In this document: piece by piece, positions 2-9,808 of the stretch | Layout: every line of letters starts with the position of its first letter | Numbering within the stretch: the stretch's first letter is position 1 | Origin: Flavobacteriales bacterium | GTDB lineage: Bacteria > Bacteroidota > Bacteroidia > NORP154 | NCBI GenBank assembly: GCA_012966015.1 | Contig: DTRI01000096.1 | Span: 1 to 37,962 of the forward strand | Length of the DNA: 37,962 nucleotides | Direction: 5' to 3' | Made by a program: the position numbers and the translations under genes | The notes under the pieces: model-generated | Database searches by the model: none | Seen by the model: the letters and a program-made list of their open reading frames with translations, nothing else | What the model was told of the DNA's origin: nothing

Positions 2-1813
2 ACTGGATGCACAGACGCACCGGTTACGTTTTACACGGATGCAACTGGAACCATAGAATGGTTTTTTGGAGCGGGCTCTGTGCCCTCAAACATTATTGGA
101 AGCCCATCCATTGCAAGCTACACTACTACCGGAAGAAAAACTTTTACAATGGTGGTCAATGGCATTCCTTACACTTACTCCGATTTTATAGACATTTTTA
201 GTACGGGTGCAGGCTTAAATCCAACGATTGTTCCCATAACGCCAGATACGCTATGTGCCGGTGATATTGGTTCGTTTACCAGCTCTGTTACGGCTGCTGA
301 TTACACATGGTATATCACGCGAGATACAGTGGTGGATACTTTTGCTGGGGCTGGCTTCCTGTCTCTTTCTTACTTATTCGACTCAGTCGGTACTTATACC
401 GTAATCCTGGAAACCAGAAATACATGCTGCGGCGTCTCATTTCCAGACACCTTTACGGTAACTGTTAATCCTATTGTTCAGCCCAGCATTGCCATACAGT
501 CCAGTGACACCAGCAACACGGTATGCGATGGCACAACGCTCACATTCAGCGCATCCGCCGATGATGTGACAGACCCATTGTACGCTTGGTTTGTAAATGG
601 TGTGCCGGTCGGAACCAATAGCCCCACATTCTCCACGTCCACACTTGTGGATGGCGATGTGATAACTGCTACTGTTCTAACAACCTCAGGCTGCTCAATA
701 GGCTTGTCTGATACCTCCAACTCAATTTCTGTGACGGTAGTTGGAATTCCTGCCGTAATCTGTACCGCGGATACTTTCATAACGGGTTTACCCACTTATT
801 TTACATCTACGGTTATCTCAGGTGGAATAGCACCATTCACGTATATCTGGGATTTTGGTGACCAAACGATGGGTGCTGGCGATTCTGTTGCACATATATA
901 TCTTTCACCGGGAGTTTATGACGTACAGGTGGATGTGGTTGATGCCAATGGATGCCCCGGAACATGCAACAGCGTTGTAACGATTTACAGCCTCTTGTCC
1001 GCTGCCTACACAGCATCTCTGTACAACGGATGCGCCCCACTAACGGTTGACTTTAACAATCAAAGCACCAATGCGGTTACCTATCTATGGGAGTTTGGCA
1101 ATGGCAGCACCATGGCGGCCACCAACACTTCTACCATCAGCTACACTTATACCAACCCCGGTACCTACGATGTGGTGCTTTATGCTTACGGAGCCTCTGG
1201 AAATGATAGCGCTTCGGTTATGAATCAAGTAATGGTGCTTCCCAGCCCGGTTGCGAATTTCCAGGGATATCCCCAGGTAATCTCAACATTGGGTGACACG
1301 GTATTTTTTGGTGACAATTCACTGGACGCCTGGATGTGGCAATGGACTTTTGGTGATCCCGCGTCTGGTGGAAATAACACCTCTATAATCCAAAATCCAG
1401 CACATTTTTATGCACTTGATGGAAGCTATACAGTTTCATTGGTAGTGACCAACGCATTCGGGTGTAAGGACAGTGTTACCAAGCCCGGCTTTATCGTGGT
1501 TAAAATTGATACGGGAGGAGGCGTTGACATAGCTGCACAGGTACCTGGGCTGAACACGATTACTATCTTCCCTAATCCTGTTGTGTCAAAATTGAATGTT
1601 GTTGTTGATGTTGAAAAACCCGGAATGCTGGAAATCACCATGATAAATATGAGTGGGCAGCGGGTACAGAAATTCTCAAATGAACGAATTCCCAAAGGCA
1701 ATACCCGCTTAACTTACTATCTAGACGATGGGCGGCTCAATAAGGGCTTATACTTTCTGGACGTGAACTACAACGGAAAGCACTACTACAAAAAAATCAT
1801 TCTAACGCCATGA
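2..1813 (+). CDS. PKD-repeat T9SS-secreted protein, 5' partial
   Basis: The reading frame is open from the first bases of the window, so the true start lies upstream; a GTG at 80 is internal. About 603 codons are visible. From about residue 240 there are three PKD-type domains, recognised by WDFGD, WEFGN and WTFGD signatures followed by GxYxVxL strands. The last 80 residues form a T9SS type A sorting domain: TIFPNPV, then MINMSGQRVQ, then GLYFLDV and a basic KKIILTP end. The protein should be exported across the outer membrane by the Por secretion system and processed at its C-terminus. The visible N-terminal 300 residues are colinear with residues from about 480 of the next gene (shared TGCT..V.FYT, GIPYTYSDF/GVPYIFTDF, CCG, WxVNGVP, DGD), so the two are paralogues. 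Its stop overlaps the next start as ATGA. The ligand is unknown; an adhesin or surface-matrix role is inference. Confidence 0.88.
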   Translation, partial: TGCTDAPVTFYTDATGTIEWFFGAGSVPSNIIGSPSIASYTTTGRKTFTMVVNGIPYTYSDFIDIFSTGAGLNPTIVPITPDTLCAGDIGSFTSSVTAADYTWYITRDTVVDTFAGAGFLSLSYLFDSVGTYTVILETRNTCCGVSFPDTFTVTVNPIVQPSIAIQSSDTSNTVCDGTTLTFSASADDVTDPLYAWFVNGVPVGTNSPTFSTSTLVDGDVITATVLTTSGCSIGLSDTSNSISVTVVGIPAVICTADTFITGLPTYFTSTVISGGIAPFTYIWDFGDQTMGAGDSVAHIYLSPGVYDVQVDVVDANGCPGTCNSVVTIYSLLSAAYTASLYNGCAPLTVDFNNQSTNAVTYLWEFGNGSTMAATNTSTISYTYTNPGTYDVVLYAYGASGNDSASVMNQVMVLPSPVANFQGYPQVISTLGDTVFFGDNSLDAWMWQWTFGDPASGGNNTSIIQNPAHFYALDGSYTVSLVVTNAFGCKDSVTKPGFIVVKIDTGGGVDIAAQVPGLNTITIFPNPVVSKLNVVVDVEKPGMLEITMINMSGQRVQKFSNERIPKGNTRLTYYLDDGRLNKGLYFLDVNYNGKHYYKKIILTP

Positions 1814-4800
1814 GGATTCTAAGCCTGAGAATATCTTTCATGGTAATTATCGCCACGGCGTTACTCATTGATAACACCCTGGCGCAAGAATGCGGCATCA
1901 TCTACGTGACACCCAGTGGAGCTGGTAGCGGTGCAGCGGGGACCAGGGCAAATCCTGCCAGCTTAACCTATGGGTTATCCCTGGCAACACCTACAGATAA
2001 TCAGGTTTGGCTGGCCTCTGGGAGCTATTCTTTATCCACAACGCTGTTTATGATCAGTGATGTTACCATAGAAGGTGGCTTTGACCCCGTTACCTGGATA
2101 AAGACCAACCTGGTGCCCAGTATAATTTATCGTGACAACGCCAACATGCAAACGGTTCCCAGCCGGCTTGTGGCCGTAGAATGCACGGGGATTAGCAACT
2201 TTCGGTTACAGGACCTGACCATTAATGTTTCCAATGGGCTTGGAGATGGGGTTTCAGTATATGGGGTACATCTCGATGGCTGTTCAAATTACTCCATTAC
2301 CCGATGCATCATCACGGTGGGAAATGCAACGGATGGGTTGCAAGGAGGACCAGGAATAGGTGGTGTATCTGGTGCTAATGGAACAGCAGGGCTGGGTGGT
2401 GACGGAAATGGCGGATGCTGTACAGCAGGTGGGGCTGGAGGATCAGGATCATTTCCTGGAAGTTTTGCTGGTGGTGACGGTGGCGCCGGAGGAGCCCGGG
2501 GAACGGGGACAATCCTCTGTTTTGGGGGCGGGAATTCTGCCCCTGATGGAAGCGATGGCCTTGCCGGGGCGGGGCCTGGAGGTGGTGCATTTGGTACAGG
2601 CGGTGCGGGCTATTGTCAGCCGGTCTGCATTTCCCTTGGCTGTGATGCCGGCCCAGGAAATGCCGGAACCAACGGCGTAGCTGGGCTAGCCGGAACCAAT
2701 GGATTGGATGGAGCAGTTGGTACGCCAGCATTTGGAAATTACTTCATTAATGGCAGCGGCGTCGTTGGGCAACAGGGCGTTCATGGCTCTGGCGGTGGCG
2801 GCGGCGGCGGCGGTGGTTCGCAAGGGTGTTTGTGGTCGCTATTTGGAAATAACAATGGTGCTGGCGCCGGAGGAGGTGGTGGTGGCGAAGGCGGGCAAGG
2901 TGGATTTGGCGCTACAGGCGGCACAGGTGGCGGCGGCTCTTTTTCTATTTATCTTTTTAACAACATGGCTGGCTCGGAAGTGAAGGATTGCAACCTGTCT
3001 TCGGGCCTGCAAGGGCTAGGCGGCCTGGGGGGTGTTCCCGGGGGTTTAGGTGGAGGGTCTGGTATTGGGGCAATTAGCACTTCTTCCGATTGCGATCTCG
3101 GAGATCCGGGAGACGGAGGTGACGGCGGGTCAGGTGGCATGGGAGGCAACGGAGGCAATGGATCCCCTGGGGTGAGCTTCCCATTATATGAAGATCCATT
3201 GGGGCTGGCTGTGGCCCAATCAGATATGCGAAGCCAGGTAGAACCACAGATCTTTGTTAAAAACACAGGATGTACGTGGTCTGATGTTGAATTTTACACC
3301 AATGCGAGCGGAATAATAGTTTGGTACTTCGACGGTGGTGCATTGCCTTTAACAGCCACAGGTGACTCAGCAGTTATACAGTACGCTTCTATGGGGCGAC
3401 ATACCATCACATTGGTAATTGATGGTGTTCCATACATCTTCACAGATTTCGTCGGAATATTCAGCGATGGGCTTATCCCAAATATTGTATCTGCTGATTC
3501 CGTTACCTGTCCGGGTACCAATGCTACTTTCACCAGCTCTATTACCAATGCAACCAATTACGATTGGGTGGTTTATGATAATCCACCTGTTACATTTTCG
3601 GGAGCAGGTATTACTTCTATCAACCATACATTCGCCGACACGGGAACATACCAAATTACGCTTCAAACGACATCAATCTGCTGCGGAAAGTCGAAGATTG
3701 ACACGTTTGAAGTCATTGTAGCACCAGTACTTACGCCGATAGTTTATGTATCGGTAACTTCTGCAGCTATTTGCGAGGGCGACCAAACCACCTTTGGAGC
3801 AGTGCCGATCAATGGGGGAACCAATCCGATTTACCAGTGGCTGGTCAATGGAGTACCCGCCGGACCCAGCACCAATACTTTTACCTCGTCATCTCTTTCG
3901 GATGGAGATATTGTCACGTGCTTTATGTTGAGCAGTTATCCCTGTGCCGTACCCATAGACGCTACGTCTCTGCCAATAACAATTGAAGTAAATCCTCTGC
4001 CAGTTGTAACCTGCAATGTGGGCAACGTATATTTAGGCGCATTCACGAACTTCGATGCAACGCTTTCAACGGGCACTGCACCGTTTACCTATGATTGGGA
4101 CTTTGGAGATGGGGGCATTGATACAGGCGCAACAACCTCCCATTATTACGGAAGCACCGGGTCCTATTCGTACACGGTAACAGTCACCGACTCTAATGGA
4201 TGCGTAGGGGTGTGTTCTGACGTCCTCACAATAATAGTGGCGCCATTTGTTGATGCCGGCTATTCTAGCAATACCATTCCCGCATGTGATAACTCAACAG
4301 TAACATTTACGGATACCAGTATTGGCAACCCCAATACCTGGTTTTGGGACTTTGGAGACGGTGTTACCATTGGGCCGGGCAGCGGGGCCGTTCCCGTTAT
4401 GCCGAATACCAGCGGAACATACGATAATCCTACTCACGTCTTTACAACTCCGGGAACCTATAACGTAACGCTGGTGTCCAGCAATGGCGTTTATGCGGAT
4501 ACCGCCTTGTATCCAAATATTGTTGTTGTTAGGCCTTCTCCCATTGCCGGCCTCACCTCATTTGACACATCCGGCTGCACATCCATAAACACGCAATTCC
4601 TGGATGCCTCTCTTGGGGCCTACTGGTTCCTTTGGGATTTTGATGATGCCAGCAGCTCCACCCAACAAAATCCGAGTCACAGTTACGCCGCGGTTGGCAC
4701 TTATAACATTTCCGTTGAGGTATGGACAATTGACAGCTTTTGCTCTGATATTTCAACCATGACCATCAATGTTTATGAGACTCCCTTTGCTGCTTTTACG

Positions 4801-5568
4801 AGAGATACGGCATGCTCATCAATTCCTATACAGTTTACAAACCTGTCGTTTGTAACGGGAAGCTCCACCATAACAGGATATGAATGGGATTTTGGTGACG
4901 GGACAGACAGCATTACGGATGTTGACCCAATTCACACATTTGATCCAGGTGGCACCTATTACACCAGCATGATTGTAACGAGCAATTATGGCTGTAAAGA
5001 CACTGCTTTTGATACAATATTGATATATCCAAAGCCTGCGGTAATGTTCGATGCGGAACCGGACAGTGTTACCATACTTAATCCCGAGATAACATTTACT
5101 GACCAAACCATATCCGACAGTATTGCAACGTGGAATTGGCAATTTGGAGATGGAGATTCGTCAGGTGTTAAAAATCCTGTCCACATGTATCCGGATACCG
5201 GAACCTATAATGTTCTGCTAACCATAACAGACACTAACGGATGCTTCGATACCATTTCCCATAGGATAGAAATTGAGCCAGATTATATATTCTTTCTACC
5301 CAACACGTTTACTCCGAATGAGGACGGTATCAATGAGCTGTTCATCCCTCTATCCACGGGCCTCAATGAGGCGAGTTACCACTTCTATATTTTCACCCGA
5401 TGGGGAGATGCTATCTTCCACACTGAAGATATTACCGTAGGATGGAACGGTTTGGCAAATAACGGAAAAAAGCTGGCCCAGACGGGCGTTTATGTGTGGC
5501 TGGTACTGTCGAAGGATCTGACAGGCGTGAACCATAAATACACAGGGCACGTTACCTTAATGAGATAA
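1810..5568 (+). CDS. Large secreted protein: beta-helix, Gly-rich insert, PKD repeats, T9SS type B sorting domain
   Basis: 1252 aa. A signal peptide covers residues 1-25 (ends LAQ). Residues 30-175 resemble a right-handed parallel beta-helix start (YVTPSG...GTRANPASL, VTIEGGFD, SITRCIITV). Residues about 177-455 are extremely glycine-rich (repeated GG-x-GG and GAGG). From about 480 the protein is colinear with the upstream paralogue. Five PKD domains follow, with WDFGD, WDFGD, WDFDD, WDFGD and WQFGD signatures. The end, about 1155-1252, is a gliding-motility-associated CHU_C/T9SS type B domain: FLPNTFTPNEDGINE, then FTRWGD, WNG and GVYVWLV. The start overlaps the previous stop by 4 nt (ATGA), so translation is probably coupled. 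The paralogue upstream ends in a type A domain instead. The role is probably a cell-surface or extracellular structural or adhesive protein; the substrate is not evident. Confidence 0.9.
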   Translation: MRILSLRISFMVIIATALLIDNTLAQECGIIYVTPSGAGSGAAGTRANPASLTYGLSLATPTDNQVWLASGSYSLSTTLFMISDVTIEGGFDPVTWIKTNLVPSIIYRDNANMQTVPSRLVAVECTGISNFRLQDLTINVSNGLGDGVSVYGVHLDGCSNYSITRCIITVGNATDGLQGGPGIGGVSGANGTAGLGGDGNGGCCTAGGAGGSGSFPGSFAGGDGGAGGARGTGTILCFGGGNSAPDGSDGLAGAGPGGGAFGTGGAGYCQPVCISLGCDAGPGNAGTNGVAGLAGTNGLDGAVGTPAFGNYFINGSGVVGQQGVHGSGGGGGGGGGSQGCLWSLFGNNNGAGAGGGGGGEGGQGGFGATGGTGGGGSFSIYLFNNMAGSEVKDCNLSSGLQGLGGLGGVPGGLGGGSGIGAISTSSDCDLGDPGDGGDGGSGGMGGNGGNGSPGVSFPLYEDPLGLAVAQSDMRSQVEPQIFVKNTGCTWSDVEFYTNASGIIVWYFDGGALPLTATGDSAVIQYASMGRHTITLVIDGVPYIFTDFVGIFSDGLIPNIVSADSVTCPGTNATFTSSITNATNYDWVVYDNPPVTFSGAGITSINHTFADTGTYQITLQTTSICCGKSKIDTFEVIVAPVLTPIVYVSVTSAAICEGDQTTFGAVPINGGTNPIYQWLVNGVPAGPSTNTFTSSSLSDGDIVTCFMLSSYPCAVPIDATSLPITIEVNPLPVVTCNVGNVYLGAFTNFDATLSTGTAPFTYDWDFGDGGIDTGATTSHYYGSTGSYSYTVTVTDSNGCVGVCSDVLTIIVAPFVDAGYSSNTIPACDNSTVTFTDTSIGNPNTWFWDFGDGVTIGPGSGAVPVMPNTSGTYDNPTHVFTTPGTYNVTLVSSNGVYADTALYPNIVVVRPSPIAGLTSFDTSGCTSINTQFLDASLGAYWFLWDFDDASSSTQQNPSHSYAAVGTYNISVEVWTIDSFCSDISTMTINVYETPFAAFTRDTACSSIPIQFTNLSFVTGSSTITGYEWDFGDGTDSITDVDPIHTFDPGGTYYTSMIVTSNYGCKDTAFDTILIYPKPAVMFDAEPDSVTILNPEITFTDQTISDSIATWNWQFGDGDSSGVKNPVHMYPDTGTYNVLLTITDTNGCFDTISHRIEIEPDYIFFLPNTFTPNEDGINELFIPLSTGLNEASYHFYIFTRWGDAIFHTEDITVGWNGLANNGKKLAQTGVYVWLVLSKDLTGVNHKYTGHVTLMR

Positions 5569-5586: not shown

Positions 5587-5916
5587 ATGGAAGAGAGGAA
5601 GACATATAAGAATTTTGAAGAGTTTTACCCGTACTACCTAACGGAGCATAAAAAGCCTGGAACACGGGTAGCTCATTTTATAGGTACATCGCTATTCTTC
5701 GTTTTTCTGGTATTGGCTATTGTTAGGCTCGAGCCCATGTATCTGCTGCCTACTGTTATTGTGCCCTATGCATTTGCATGGGTAGGTCACTTTTTTATCG
5801 AGAAGAACAAACCCGCAACTTTCCAATATCCCGGAATGTCTTTGAGGGGGGATTTCAAGCTATACTTTCAGATTCTTTTAGGCAAAGAGGGGTTTACAGG
5901 GTCGACTGAAGATTAA
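5587..5916 (+). CDS. Mpo1-like (DUF962) small membrane protein
   Basis: 109 aa. It carries the two signature blocks of the Mpo1/YGL010w (DUF962) family: EHKKPGTRVAH (His21, His30) and GHFFIEKNKPATF (His68, Glu72, Asn74, Pro76). Two hydrophobic segments lie between them at about residues 33-46 and 52-66. In yeast, Mpo1 is an Fe(II)-dependent dioxygenase acting on 2-hydroxy fatty acids during alpha-oxidation. The conserved His residues suggest a metal site here too, but the bacterial substrate is unknown. The gene begins 18 nt after the preceding stop and may be read from the same transcript, though nothing links it functionally to the T9SS proteins upstream. Its stop overlaps the convergent protease gene's stop inside one TTAA. 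Confidence 0.8.
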   Translation: MEERKTYKNFEEFYPYYLTEHKKPGTRVAHFIGTSLFFVFLVLAIVRLEPMYLLPTVIVPYAFAWVGHFFIEKNKPATFQYPGMSLRGDFKLYFQILLGKEGFTGSTED

Positions 5917-7574
5917 TAGCGCACAACTCTGGAAGAGAATATATTTGCTGTATTCTGTATGCGAATTATATAAAATCCCGGGGTGATGGCTTCCAGGTTT
6001 AGCTCTACCTTATCCTTTGAAGAGAGTTTTAGCACACCAGGCACCTCTTGCCCCAATGCATTATAGAGCCCAACATTCACAATGTCTCCTTCAATCCCTT
6101 CAATTGTCAATAATGACCTGGTGGGATTGGGATAAAGCCGTATGTCGTTTGGTTGCACACTCCATTCCATGCCCACATACTTGGTGTAATCACAATTGGC
6201 TAACAACATCAAGCTATTGTAAATGTTAAGCCTGCCATCCGTAACTGTAATCTCTGTGAGGTCGGCGATCGAATCTGTTCCATTGAAAATGTAATCTCTG
6301 ATTTGAAGTGCGTAAAATCCGGGATTACCCTTATAGTCAGCAATAAATTCTGAGCAAACTGCAGCATATAACAAGGCTACAGCACCCGCTACATGAGGCG
6401 TCGCCATAGACGTGCCCGTTTTTTGACCATAAGTATCATTCGGCTCAGTTGACCAAATATCCGTGCCGGGAGCACCCAGGTCTATTGTAGTCAGCCCATA
6501 GGCTGCCCCGGAGTTTCTCAGATCATCTTCTGTTGTATTGGTCACTGAAATCATCCATTCACTGGGACAGGCGGTAGGAATATCATTCTCCGAGTCAACA
6601 TCCTCATCTAAATTCATAGTTGCTCCTGCGCTTAGCACACCCGCCACTCCCAAAGAATCATAAAAGGCACACCAAATTGGAAAATCCACCGGATCGCCAA
6701 AATTGCTGCCAAATGATGAATTGGTAGAAACCACAAAGGCGCCAGAATCACCATTCGTCTCGTTGTAAGTTGCCCTTAGCTCCAAGACATAACCGTAGGA
6801 TTCTATCACCGTGGATTCGGTGCCCGATGAGCCTTGAACGGGCATGATTTTCACATTCCAATTTACACCTGCCAGGCCTACACCATTATTTCCAATTGCA
6901 CCTACGGTTCCCGCTACATGTGTGCCATGGCCGCATGAGCTTACATCTCCATCGCTGTTATAGGCGTTCCAACCATCATAATCATCGATGTATCCATTGT
7001 TGTCGTCATCAACATTGTTATTGGGAATTTCCTTTCTGTTTTTCCAATAAGCCAGATCCTCATGATTCAAATCAAATCCACAATCAATTACTGCCACCAC
7101 TATGGTGTCGCCCAATGCAGTGAGCCCTCCCGTAGCGGAGTCCCATGCCTGAGGGGCGTCTATGTCTGCATCGAGCATGCCACCACTTTGCCCCGTATTG
7201 TCCATGTCCCACTGATCTCCGAACCGAGGATCATTCGGAATTGTACCCCGCTGTTCAACAAAATGATTGAGCTGTGCGGCAAATACCTCTTCATTGTTCC
7301 GAAAAGCCCACAGCGCCTCTTTTTCCTCCAGCATTACCGGGTCAAATCCGATCAAATGAATGTTGAGTCTTTGCGAGAGCTGTTTGATGTGGCTCAGCTT
7401 TGAGGAGGTGCTTACACCACCATTAATAGTGGCAAGGACCTCGTTGACCTCTCCTTTGTAATGCAGCTGAATAATTAGCTGGCCGGGCACGTGATCAGGT
7501 CGCTGTGCAAAACATGGTGAGCCAGGAAAAAGGAACACTAGGGCCACGGTACACACGGCGATATGATTCTTCAT
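5913..7574 (-). CDS. Subtilisin-like serine protease (S8) with T9SS type A sorting domain
   Basis: I chose the ATG at 7574 (553 aa). It begins directly with a signal peptide (MKNHIAV...CFAQ) and lies 4 nt after the upstream lipoprotein stop, whereas the in-frame ATG at 7604 would overlap that gene and add ten polar residues. Numbering from 7574: prodomain about 25-110, ending QLNHFVEQR at 101-109; catalytic Asp164 in VAVIDCG; His216 in GHGTHVAG; oxyanion Asn about 285 in STNSSFG; Ser389 in GTSMATPHVAG. All catalytic residues are present. An Asp-rich, probably Ca-binding, loop (NNNVDDDNNGYIDDYDG) lies between Asp and His. The last 75 residues are a T9SS type A sorting domain (RLYPNP, LYNALGQEV, GFYIIRI). 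It is likely an extracellular or surface protease, translated together with the lipoprotein encoded just upstream. Confidence 0.93.
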   Translation of the reverse strand: MKNHIAVCTVALVFLFPGSPCFAQRPDHVPGQLIIQLHYKGEVNEVLATINGGVSTSSKLSHIKQLSQRLNIHLIGFDPVMLEEKEALWAFRNNEEVFAAQLNHFVEQRGTIPNDPRFGDQWDMDNTGQSGGMLDADIDAPQAWDSATGGLTALGDTIVVAVIDCGFDLNHEDLAYWKNRKEIPNNNVDDDNNGYIDDYDGWNAYNSDGDVSSCGHGTHVAGTVGAIGNNGVGLAGVNWNVKIMPVQGSSGTESTVIESYGYVLELRATYNETNGDSGAFVVSTNSSFGSNFGDPVDFPIWCAFYDSLGVAGVLSAGATMNLDEDVDSENDIPTACPSEWMISVTNTTEDDLRNSGAAYGLTTIDLGAPGTDIWSTEPNDTYGQKTGTSMATPHVAGAVALLYAAVCSEFIADYKGNPGFYALQIRDYIFNGTDSIADLTEITVTDGRLNIYNSLMLLANCDYTKYVGMEWSVQPNDIRLYPNPTRSLLTIEGIEGDIVNVGLYNALGQEVPGVLKLSSKDKVELNLEAITPGFYIIRIQNTANIFSSRVVRY

Positions 7575-7578
7575 ACTC

Positions 7579-7920
7579 TCAATTATTTCGTTGTTCAGTT
7601 TCATGATTCAATTGCACATGGGTAATGTTATCATCCTGTTTAAGCAGATTCAAGGCGTTTCCTATGTCTTCACGCTTGTAGTTAATGGTCATCTCCCAGG
7701 TGTTCATGCGCGCCGAAAGAACCTTTACAACTGCCAAATTCAGGTCCTTATGCCGTGCGGCCAAAGACTCAATGTCGGCATTTTTCGCAACCTGTACAAT
7801 GATACTGATAAGCTCTCCGGCGCTCCGGTCCTTTTCAATCTTTGAAAACAAGCCGCAACCCACTATGAGAACACAGAGCGATAGCGTTAGAACAAGATGT
7901 GAATTGAAAATCGCTCTCAT
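7579..7920 (-). CDS. Small lipoprotein resembling the prodomain of the adjacent S8 protease
   Basis: I place the start at 7920 (113 aa): it gives a clean lipoprotein signal (MRAIFNSHLVL...LIVGC, lipobox Cys22), and a TAnnTTTG -7 box at 7946-7953 would start the mRNA downstream of the alternative ATG at 7944. The mature part is about 90 residues. Its end, from about residue 85, aligns with the end of the neighbouring protease's prodomain: NALNLLKQDDNITHVQLNH next to EALWAFRNNEEVFAAQLNH, then ETEQR next to FVEQR. The lipoprotein stops just where the protease continues into its catalytic domain. Propeptide-like proteins (I9 and related) can fold or inhibit subtilisins in trans, so a membrane-tethered inhibitor or chaperone for the S8 enzyme is a reasonable inference. 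The family is not one I recognise by name. Confidence 0.75.
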   Translation of the reverse strand: MRAIFNSHLVLTLSLCVLIVGCGLFSKIEKDRSAGELISIIVQVAKNADIESLAARHKDLNLAVVKVLSARMNTWEMTINYKREDIGNALNLLKQDDNITHVQLNHETEQRNN

Positions 7921-7945: not shown

Positions 7946-7953
7946 CAAATCTA
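7946..7953 (-). promoter_or_regulatory. -7 promoter box for the lipoprotein/S8 protease pair
   Basis: On the minus strand this reads TAGATTTG, a perfect match to the Bacteroidota -7 consensus TAnnTTTG. It is 25 nt from the chosen ATG at 7920. No clear TTG is seen at the usual -33 distance. Confidence 0.55.
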
Positions 7954-7965
7954 CTAATAACTGCC

Positions 7966-7973
7966 TATTTTTG
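7966..7973 (+). promoter_or_regulatory. -7 promoter box for uvrC
   Basis: The sequence TATTTTTG matches TAnnTTTG perfectly and ends only 5 nt before the ATG at 7979, so transcription from it would give a leaderless or nearly leaderless uvrC mRNA. It lies 12 bp from the divergent -7 box at 7946-7953, so the two promoters overlap. No -33 TTG at the usual distance. Confidence 0.5.
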
Positions 7974-7978
7974 TGTTG

Positions 7979-9808
7979 ATGAGTTCTGCTCTACCCATAC
8001 ACGATCTAATCCGGAAAAAGCTTCGCTCCCTTCCGGAAAACCCCGGCATTTACCAGTTCATGGATGCTGAGGGAGGTATCATTTATGTTGGGAAAGCCAA
8101 GAATCTAAAAAAGCGGGTGTCTTCCTACTTTAACAAAACACGTGCTAATAGCGGTAAAACCGCCATGCTTGTGAGAAAGATTCGGGATATGAAATATCTG
8201 ATTGCGGATACTGAATTAGAAGCGCTTCTTTTAGAGAACTCCCTGATTAAAAAACTAAAGCCCAAGTATAACGTTCAGCTCAAGGATGACAAGAGCTTCC
8301 CCTGGATATGCATTAAGAGTGAACGATTCCCCAGGGTATTTCCCACCCGACAGCTGAGGGATGATGGTTCGGAATATTATGGGCCCTACGCTTCCGTAAA
8401 GATGATGAACACCATCCTGGAATTGATTAAACGGCTGTACAAGCTTCGAAACTGTAATTACAACCTCTCTGAAGAAAACATAGGCAACAAGAAGTTTAGC
8501 GTTTGCCTGGAATACCACATTGGCAACTGCCTGGGGCCCTGTGAGGATCTGCAATCGGAAAAAGATTATGATCAAACCGTATCCCAAATTAGAAATATCA
8601 TCAAAGGCAATCTGCATTCAGTGACAAAGCACTTCAAGCAGCTCATGAAAGAACACGCCGAGAATTTTGAGTATGAAAAGGCGCAGCTCATCAAAGAAAA
8701 GCTGGAATGGATGGAAAAGTACCGTGGAAAGTCAGTCGTTGTAAACCCGAAGATTCATGATGTGGAAGTATTTTCAATTGTCACCAACGACAAGTATGGT
8801 TATGTAAATTACATGCGAGTTGCTGAAGGGGCTATTGTACAGGGTCACACGGTAGAATTGAAAAAGAGATTGGATGAATCAGAAGAAGAGCTGCTCTCCA
8901 TCGCAATCTTAGACCTGAGATCCAGGTTCAACAGTGACTGCAGGGAAATCATTGTCCCCTTTCAGATTGATTTGAAAATGCCTTATAGAGAAGAGCCCGC
9001 TTCTTTTCTGATACCCAAAAAGGGCGACAAAAAACTCCTGCTTGGATTATCTGAACGCAACGCTAAATTCTACATGCTAGATAAACAAAAATCGCGGTTG
9101 ACGGTCTCCACGAAAAAGAACCGTACTAACGAGCTGCTGGAGAAAATGAAAGCTGAGCTAAAGCTCAGCACATTGCCGGTACATATTGAGTGCATTGACA
9201 ACTCTAATATTCAGGGGACCAACGCGGTAGCGGCTTTGGTTGTATTCAAAAATACAAAGCCTTCAAAGAAAGATTATCGTCACTTCAATATTAAGACCGT
9301 AGCTGGCGCGGATGATTTCGCTTCCATGGAAGAGGTGGTACTTCGCCGATATGGACGGTTAAAAAAGGAGAAAAAACCCCTGCCTCAGCTCCTGATCATC
9401 GATGGGGGCAAGGGCCAGATTTCATCTGCCATGAAAAGCCTGGAAAAGCTAAAATTAGCTGGCAAAATCAGTGTGATTGGTATCGCGAAAAGGCTGGAAG
9501 AGCTTTACTATCCATACGATCCGCTTCCGCTCTACCTGGACAAGCGCTCCGAAACACTTAGGGTAATTCAGCAATTGCGAAACGAGGCCCACCGCTTCGG
9601 AATTACGCATCACAGAAAGAGGCGCATTAAAGCTTCGATAAACACGGAGCTACAGAAAATTGATGGAGTAGGGGAGGCCACTTCGAAAATTCTATTGAAA
9701 AAATACCGTTCCGTGAAAAACATTAAGAGAGCGACGGAAGATGAGCTGATAAAAGTAGTGGGGAGGTCAAAGGCCAGGTTGATTCACGCTTACCTGGCAA
9801 AAAACTAA
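7979..9808 (+). CDS. uvrC: Excinuclease ABC subunit C
   Basis: 609 aa from the ATG at 7979; in-frame GTG and TTG codons 3 and 6 nt upstream are less likely starts. UvrC makes the two incisions flanking a DNA lesion in UvrABC nucleotide excision repair. Domains in order: GIY-YIG nuclease at about 20-95 (PGIYQF at 22-27, YVGKAKNLKKR); a Cys-rich segment with CLEYHIGNCLGPC; UVR motif near 225-245 (FEYEKAQLIKEKLEWM), which binds UvrB; the C-terminal RNase H-like nuclease from about 400 (ECIDNSNIQG, then LIIDGGKGQ); and a helix-hairpin-helix DNA-binding tail at about 555-605 (IDGVGEATSKILL, VVGRSKA). Length and domain order are normal for the family. It is divergent from the lipoprotein gene and convergent with gpsA 13 nt away. 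Confidence 0.97.
   Translation: MSSALPIHDLIRKKLRSLPENPGIYQFMDAEGGIIYVGKAKNLKKRVSSYFNKTRANSGKTAMLVRKIRDMKYLIADTELEALLLENSLIKKLKPKYNVQLKDDKSFPWICIKSERFPRVFPTRQLRDDGSEYYGPYASVKMMNTILELIKRLYKLRNCNYNLSEENIGNKKFSVCLEYHIGNCLGPCEDLQSEKDYDQTVSQIRNIIKGNLHSVTKHFKQLMKEHAENFEYEKAQLIKEKLEWMEKYRGKSVVVNPKIHDVEVFSIVTNDKYGYVNYMRVAEGAIVQGHTVELKKRLDESEEELLSIAILDLRSRFNSDCREIIVPFQIDLKMPYREEPASFLIPKKGDKKLLLGLSERNAKFYMLDKQKSRLTVSTKKNRTNELLEKMKAELKLSTLPVHIECIDNSNIQGTNAVAALVVFKNTKPSKKDYRHFNIKTVAGADDFASMEEVVLRRYGRLKKEKKPLPQLLIIDGGKGQISSAMKSLEKLKLAGKISVIGIAKRLEELYYPYDPLPLYLDKRSETLRVIQQLRNEAHRFGITHHRKRRIKASINTELQKIDGVGEATSKILLKKYRSVKNIKRATEDELIKVVGRSKARLIHAYLAKN

Follow-up and report, generated by a model that had tools for sequence, protein, structure and literature searches.

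Proteases exported by the type IX secretion system (T9SS) pass the periplasm in folded form. How cells are protected from their premature activation is, to our knowledge, understood in detail for only a few oral bacteria. Potempins, as presented by Ksiazek et al. in 2023, are reportedly beta-barrels (OB or up-and-down). The potempins of Tannerella forsythia (PotA-PotE) are small lipoproteins that specifically inhibit T9SS-exported proteases, each ORF lying immediately before that of its target, and one of these targets, mirolase, is subtilisin-like (PMC4404884, PMC7296668). Propeptides acting in trans inhibit subtilases tightly, and their C-terminal tail matters for potency (PMC10580911). Stand-alone propeptide-like inhibitors include POIA1, yeast PBI2/IB2, SPI-1, TgMIC5 and SUB1-ProM, the last of which is encoded beside its target gene; those named in PMC6993865 come from eukaryotes and have no lipid anchor. 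In Aeromonas sobria, the S8 protease ASP is propeptide-deficient and requires an essential chaperone from the adjacent gene, ORF2, the C-terminus of which lies in the active site (PMC5638518).

Here, a lipoprotein-protease locus of a Flavobacteriales bacterium (assembly GCA_012966015.1, contig DTRI01000096.1) was analysed within a window that comprises the whole stretch of 37,962 nucleotides. An earlier note on this DNA had read the lipoprotein as a membrane-tethered free prodomain, similar at its C-terminal end to the prodomain of the S8 protease encoded next to it.

Gene layout

The lipoprotein and protease genes form an isolated two-gene operon (Table 1), delimited upstream by a divergent gene which, from its sequence and general knowledge, we take to be uvrC-like. 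The spacing of 4 nt claimed for the pair was found as GAGT. The protease was matched in Pfam by Peptidase_S8 (3.1e-29) and by the T9SS tail (3.7e-9), and its sorting domain scored above the curated cut-offs of both Pfam (37.2 bits vs 27) and NCBIfam (42.9 vs 23).

Table 1. Coordinates of the two-gene operon, its domains and its boundaries in the window
Feature	Position	Strand	Basis
Small convergent gene, downstream operon boundary	5587..5916	+	open reading frame
Subtilisin-like (S8) protease of 553 aa (ATG 7574); carries a prodomain and a T9SS sorting tail	5913..7574	-	Pfam
Type IX secretion C-terminal sorting domain	5928..6137	-	Pfam and NCBIfam
S8 catalytic domain; triad D164, H216, S389 by motif	6360..7112	-	Pfam and alignment A8
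Protease prodomain, residues 24-109, end ...NHFVEQR	7248..7505	-	domain profile
Intergenic gap GAGT, 4 nt	7575..7578	-	sequence
Gene of the 113-aa lipoprotein; free S8-type prodomain with lipid anchor, proposed to inhibit in trans	7579..7920	-	ATG 7920, stop 7579-7581
Prodomain-like domain of lipoprotein, end at Arg111	7588..7812	-	profile, independent profile, predicted fold
Signal peptide and lipobox, residues 1-22 (IVGC22)	7855..7920	-	sequence
uvrC-like gene, divergent, upstream operon boundary	7973..9808	+	sequence

As in bacterial lipoproteins generally, a hydrophobic stretch precedes LIVGC22, and the lipobox is kept in relatives; lipidation is predicted. The lipoprotein (P0001) matched no Pfam family up to E=10 and no NCBIfam model. 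The Inhibitor_I9 model (PF05922, MEROPS I9) did not match either, and since no Pfam family was matched the protein was not filed as I9.

About 26 nt 5' of the lipoprotein ATG, TAGATTTG at 7946-7953 (-) fits the Bacteroidota -7 promoter element (consensus TAnnTTTG) and is given as a lead only. The source genome (G000) is very rich in T9SS cargo, with 137 sorting-tail matches, several of them within the window. Positions 1810-5568 of the window encode, as judged by eye, a glycine-rich protein of 1252 aa that contains PKD-like repeats and ends in a gliding-type tail.

Homology to the S8 prodomain

The similarity of lipoprotein and prodomain was recovered with three methods. BLASTP against the neighbouring protease paired about 105 residues (E=4e-5), and hhalign, with signal peptides removed, aligned six lipoproteins with five prodomains over 73 columns (prob 97.4, E=1.1e-11). 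An independent profile, built from 32 S8-fused prodomains solely from other families, matched the window lipoprotein over the whole domain with 45.7 bits (E=2.6e-13 for 1000 sequences); among 2150 shuffles, the highest score was 7.8 bits. Profile A5, which contains the window lipoprotein itself, matched the prodomain-like domain with E=1.9e-26. The likeness seen earlier at the matching C-terminal ends was borne out and extended beyond the last 19 residues to the whole mature domain, for which homology to the S8 prodomain, beyond chance, is judged from these alignments to be close to certain. PDB sequence searches with the lipoprotein and prodomain profiles gave no convincing match, profile A9 reaching the Tk-subtilisin propeptide only at E=1.7, and no relative of the lipoprotein was found in viral contigs.

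Predicted fold

For the lipoproteins alone, AlphaFold2 predicted a strand-helix-strand-strand-helix-strand topology (E-H-E-E-H-E) with a core pLDDT of 83-89 and a low-confidence C-terminal tail. The same element order was predicted from a separate alignment for the protease's own prodomain; in the full-length protease model, based on an alignment of only four sequences, the catalytic domain failed (mean pLDDT 36.6). Subtilisin propeptides (Tk-subtilisin, BPN', EpiP) were among the best PDB structural matches at Z 7.5-8.4, with scores of 8.4 for 2z58_B, 8.1 for 2z56_B, 7.8 for 3cnq_P and 7.9 for EpiP. The predicted lipoprotein topology is that of S8 propeptides, the fold that had been set in advance as a test. 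Because the ferredoxin-like fold is common, ACT domains, ribosomal S6 and others being intermixed at similar Z, and because Foldseek alone gave nothing below 0.018, this agreement was not used as proof and the predicted fold alone would not be diagnostic.

End point of the free domain

In alignment with the protease, the solved chain of mature deseasin MCP-01 begins at residue 113, so the protease prodomain would end near Arg109; the Pfam S8 model begins only at residue 155. The matched end had been placed 14 residues or more before the catalytic domain, which the MCP-01 alignment corrects, EQR109 standing right at the maturation point. The corresponding Arg of the lipoprotein is residue 111 of 113, with two residues (NN) left before the stop. 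Among 41 free domains, the protein stops 0-6 residues (median 1) past the matched domain end, where an Arg is near-invariant, and in fused S8 proteins the PNDPxF mature start lies a few residues past the same Arg. Between its last strand and this terminal Arg, the free domain has the same spacing as the BPN' propeptide has between its last strand and its P1 Tyr77 (sequence checked against 1spb_P). By homology, the lipoprotein would end at the active-site tail, that is, at the cleavage point of a prodomain, and such an end point would suit a product-like inhibitor. The protease might cut the lipoprotein tail, because it extends two residues beyond Arg111.

Location in the envelope

Surface lipoproteins of Bacteroidota carry acidic residues directly after the Cys (C-X-K-(D/E)2, SDDDD, SDDFE; PMC5080379). 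In the window lipoprotein, residues +2 to +6 after the lipid Cys are GLFSK and this acidic signal is absent; two acidic residues at these positions were seen in only one of the 32 assigned lipoboxes of free-prodomain lipoproteins. Given this absence, the window lipoprotein and the other free-prodomain lipoproteins most likely face the periplasm, an orientation favoured solely by the missing export motif, which is known from other species.

The same observation bears on a possible role as surface anchor or subunit, in which the lipoprotein would tether the exported protease to the outer membrane through its prodomain fold. A parallel is offered by Treponema dentilisin, in which an S8 protease is joined by lipoproteins of the same operon and PrcB is required for PrtP (PMC8167434). 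However, most free-prodomain lipoboxes would not direct their proteins to the surface, and a domain that ends exactly at the active-site tail would block the enzyme that it held, which makes a surface anchor improbable.

Conservation and origin of the pair

The lipoprotein was present in five of the 60 relatives searched, these five belonging to the source family, with an identity of 54-61% within the genus and 33-38% beyond; in these five it adjoins the S8 gene, in the same order and beside uvrC. In each of six source-family genomes the domain profile matched one fused copy, one free copy and no other; a seventh (G003) had neither. The pair is intact in 6/6 genomes of the family having either gene. 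In a second family, genome G041 encodes a diverged upstream lipoprotein, the stop of which overlaps the protease start. A third family, f63, has three loci at which a single-domain lipoprotein gene comes immediately downstream of an S8 protease gene (G494, G471, G498). Recurrence of the pair elsewhere, the other test set beforehand, was thus seen as adjacent pairs in three families and, together with the predicted fold, supports the earlier reading of a free prodomain paired with an S8 protease. Of the two related S8 proteases encoded in G041 (loci L009 and L029), only one is accompanied by the lipoprotein, which overlaps its start.

The domain was detected in 134 of 395 genomes of the class, nearly always only within a long S8 frame, and free copies in the phylum-wide sample were confined to the source family and f63. 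A search of the DNA upstream of S8 genes from other families yielded almost no lipoproteins. A neighbouring lipoprotein is missing for most S8 proteases that carry this prodomain, so it is not generally needed.

These patterns weigh on the idea of an external chaperone, by which the lipoprotein would aid folding of the protease in trans and inhibition would be a by-product. In mesophiles S8 propeptides act as foldases, the lipoprotein is the first product of the window operon, and ASP-ORF2 is a bacterial precedent with a C-terminus in the active site (PMC5638518). ASP, however, lacks a propeptide, whereas residues 24-109 of the window protease are a complete prodomain and the paired S8 proteases of other families keep theirs. 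Related S8 proteases also manage without the lipoprotein, and in three loci its gene lies downstream. A chaperone role is accordingly considered unlikely, if marginally less so than a surface anchor.

Purifying selection was detected on the lipoprotein (pN/pS 0.37-0.46, three species), and prodomain and lipoprotein evolve at similar rates, both under purifying selection (pN/pS 0.28-0.46). In a weak tree of 85 columns, the source-family lipoproteins form a clade (97/93) on a long stem. A single clade of all free domains even fitted slightly better (p-AU 0.535), and a local duplication in the source family gave p-AU 0.37; one origin of all free domains would be compatible with the tree, as would local duplication, neither being rejected. 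Adjacency, homology and the possible local duplication could also describe a remnant of a partial tandem duplication with no present function. Against this, the lipoproteins constitute an old clade of their own, they are under purifying selection, their lipobox and end point are kept, and comparable pairs occur in other families; a remnant is highly improbable, and the pseudogene idea was rejected on conservation (clade and purifying selection).

DUF6438 fusions and other peptidases

In f63, the domain was found, among the matches listed, in frames of about 100-350 aa in about 70/120 genomes. Most of the frames inspected over their full length encode lipoproteins in which DUF6438 (PF20033) is N-terminal and the free prodomain forms the very C-terminus. 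Loci L066, L067, L068 and L074-L103 (e.g. L077:967-1734, +) encode such DUF6438 lipoproteins of ~240-290 aa with an S8-prodomain-like C-terminus. This C-terminal part, common in f63, stops at the conserved Arg and is unannotated in Pfam and NCBIfam; no paper on DUF6438 was found in the literature searched. No S8 gene was located within 1.5 kb of the f63 DUF6438-prodomain lipoproteins, so these forms would need to target proteases encoded elsewhere, or would serve another purpose.

Two loci place the domain beside other peptidases. At L112, a T9SS-tailed M14 zinc carboxypeptidase (1057-3483, +) is followed after 4 nt by a prodomain-like lipoprotein (3487-3816, +), which is single-domain and without the terminal Arg; an S8-type prodomain is here paired with a metallopeptidase. 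At L066, the DUF6438-prodomain protein (2114-2830, -) lies 9 nt downstream of a T9SS-tailed, pappalysin-type M43 peptidase (2840-3964, -) on the same strand.

Proposed function

The lipoprotein is probably a lipid-anchored free S8 prodomain that inhibits the operon's protease in trans, tightly and by mimicking a cleavage product, its target being the sole protease with the same prodomain type, encoded by the next gene. It should work like an I9 inhibitor. Lipoprotein and protease would both cross the inner membrane by Sec; the lipoprotein would then be lipidated and remain in the envelope, most likely on the periplasmic side of the membrane, while the protease would fold with its own prodomain and await T9SS export. 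On any protease molecule that lost its own prodomain early, the anchored copy would dock through its four-stranded sheet, and its C-terminal tail (...NHETEQR) would occupy the substrate cleft of the catalytic domain, Arg111 taking the P1 position, as in a cleaved propeptide. The envelope would thereby be protected, and the exported enzyme, outside and beyond the reach of the anchor, would be active.

On a broader scale, the single-domain forms and the DUF6438 fusions may together constitute, in some Bacteroidota, an old, unannotated family of lipid-anchored propeptide inhibitors, an intramolecular safety catch freed and membrane-tethered, that guards the periplasm against the cell's own T9SS-bound proteases; we put this forward tentatively, with slightly less than even confidence. 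The C-terminal half of many DUF6438 lipoproteins would gain a likely meaning. The recurring lipoprotein-prodomain pair would offer a simple, testable answer for environmental Bacteroidota and supplies a ready set of candidate cognate enzyme-inhibitor pairs.

Comparison with known systems

Several described systems share part of this arrangement. The fervidolysin N-terminal prodomain (PF22148) gave weak, sub-threshold matches to protease residues 24-103 (E=0.07) and to the related lipoprotein at L009 (E=0.0036); unlike members of that family, these remain under the curated cut-off, and neither Pfam nor NCBIfam matched the window lipoprotein. As with ASP and ORF2, an S8 protease has a partner from the adjacent gene, but the window protease keeps its prodomain, and ORF2 is not described as a lipoprotein in PMC5638518. 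With the stand-alone propeptide inhibitors of subtilases, the window protein shares a free propeptide fold; unlike them it is bacterial, a predicted lipoprotein, encoded in an operon with a T9SS substrate and clearly homologous in sequence to a prodomain. In a search covering few subscription papers, no earlier description of a bacterial lipid-anchored free prodomain was found.

Closest are the potempins, in which, as here and in the relatives, the lipoprotein gene directly precedes the T9SS protease gene. The pairing had been called unusual, which does not hold for a lipoprotein inhibitor preceding a T9SS protease and stands for the prodomain. Unlike a potempin, the window lipoprotein has a predicted alpha/beta prodomain fold rather than a beta-barrel and is a sequence homologue of its presumed target's own prodomain. 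If the proposed function is true, it would be the same solution as that of the unrelated potempins. The arrangement is known from them, and what differs is the prodomain in place of the beta-barrel.
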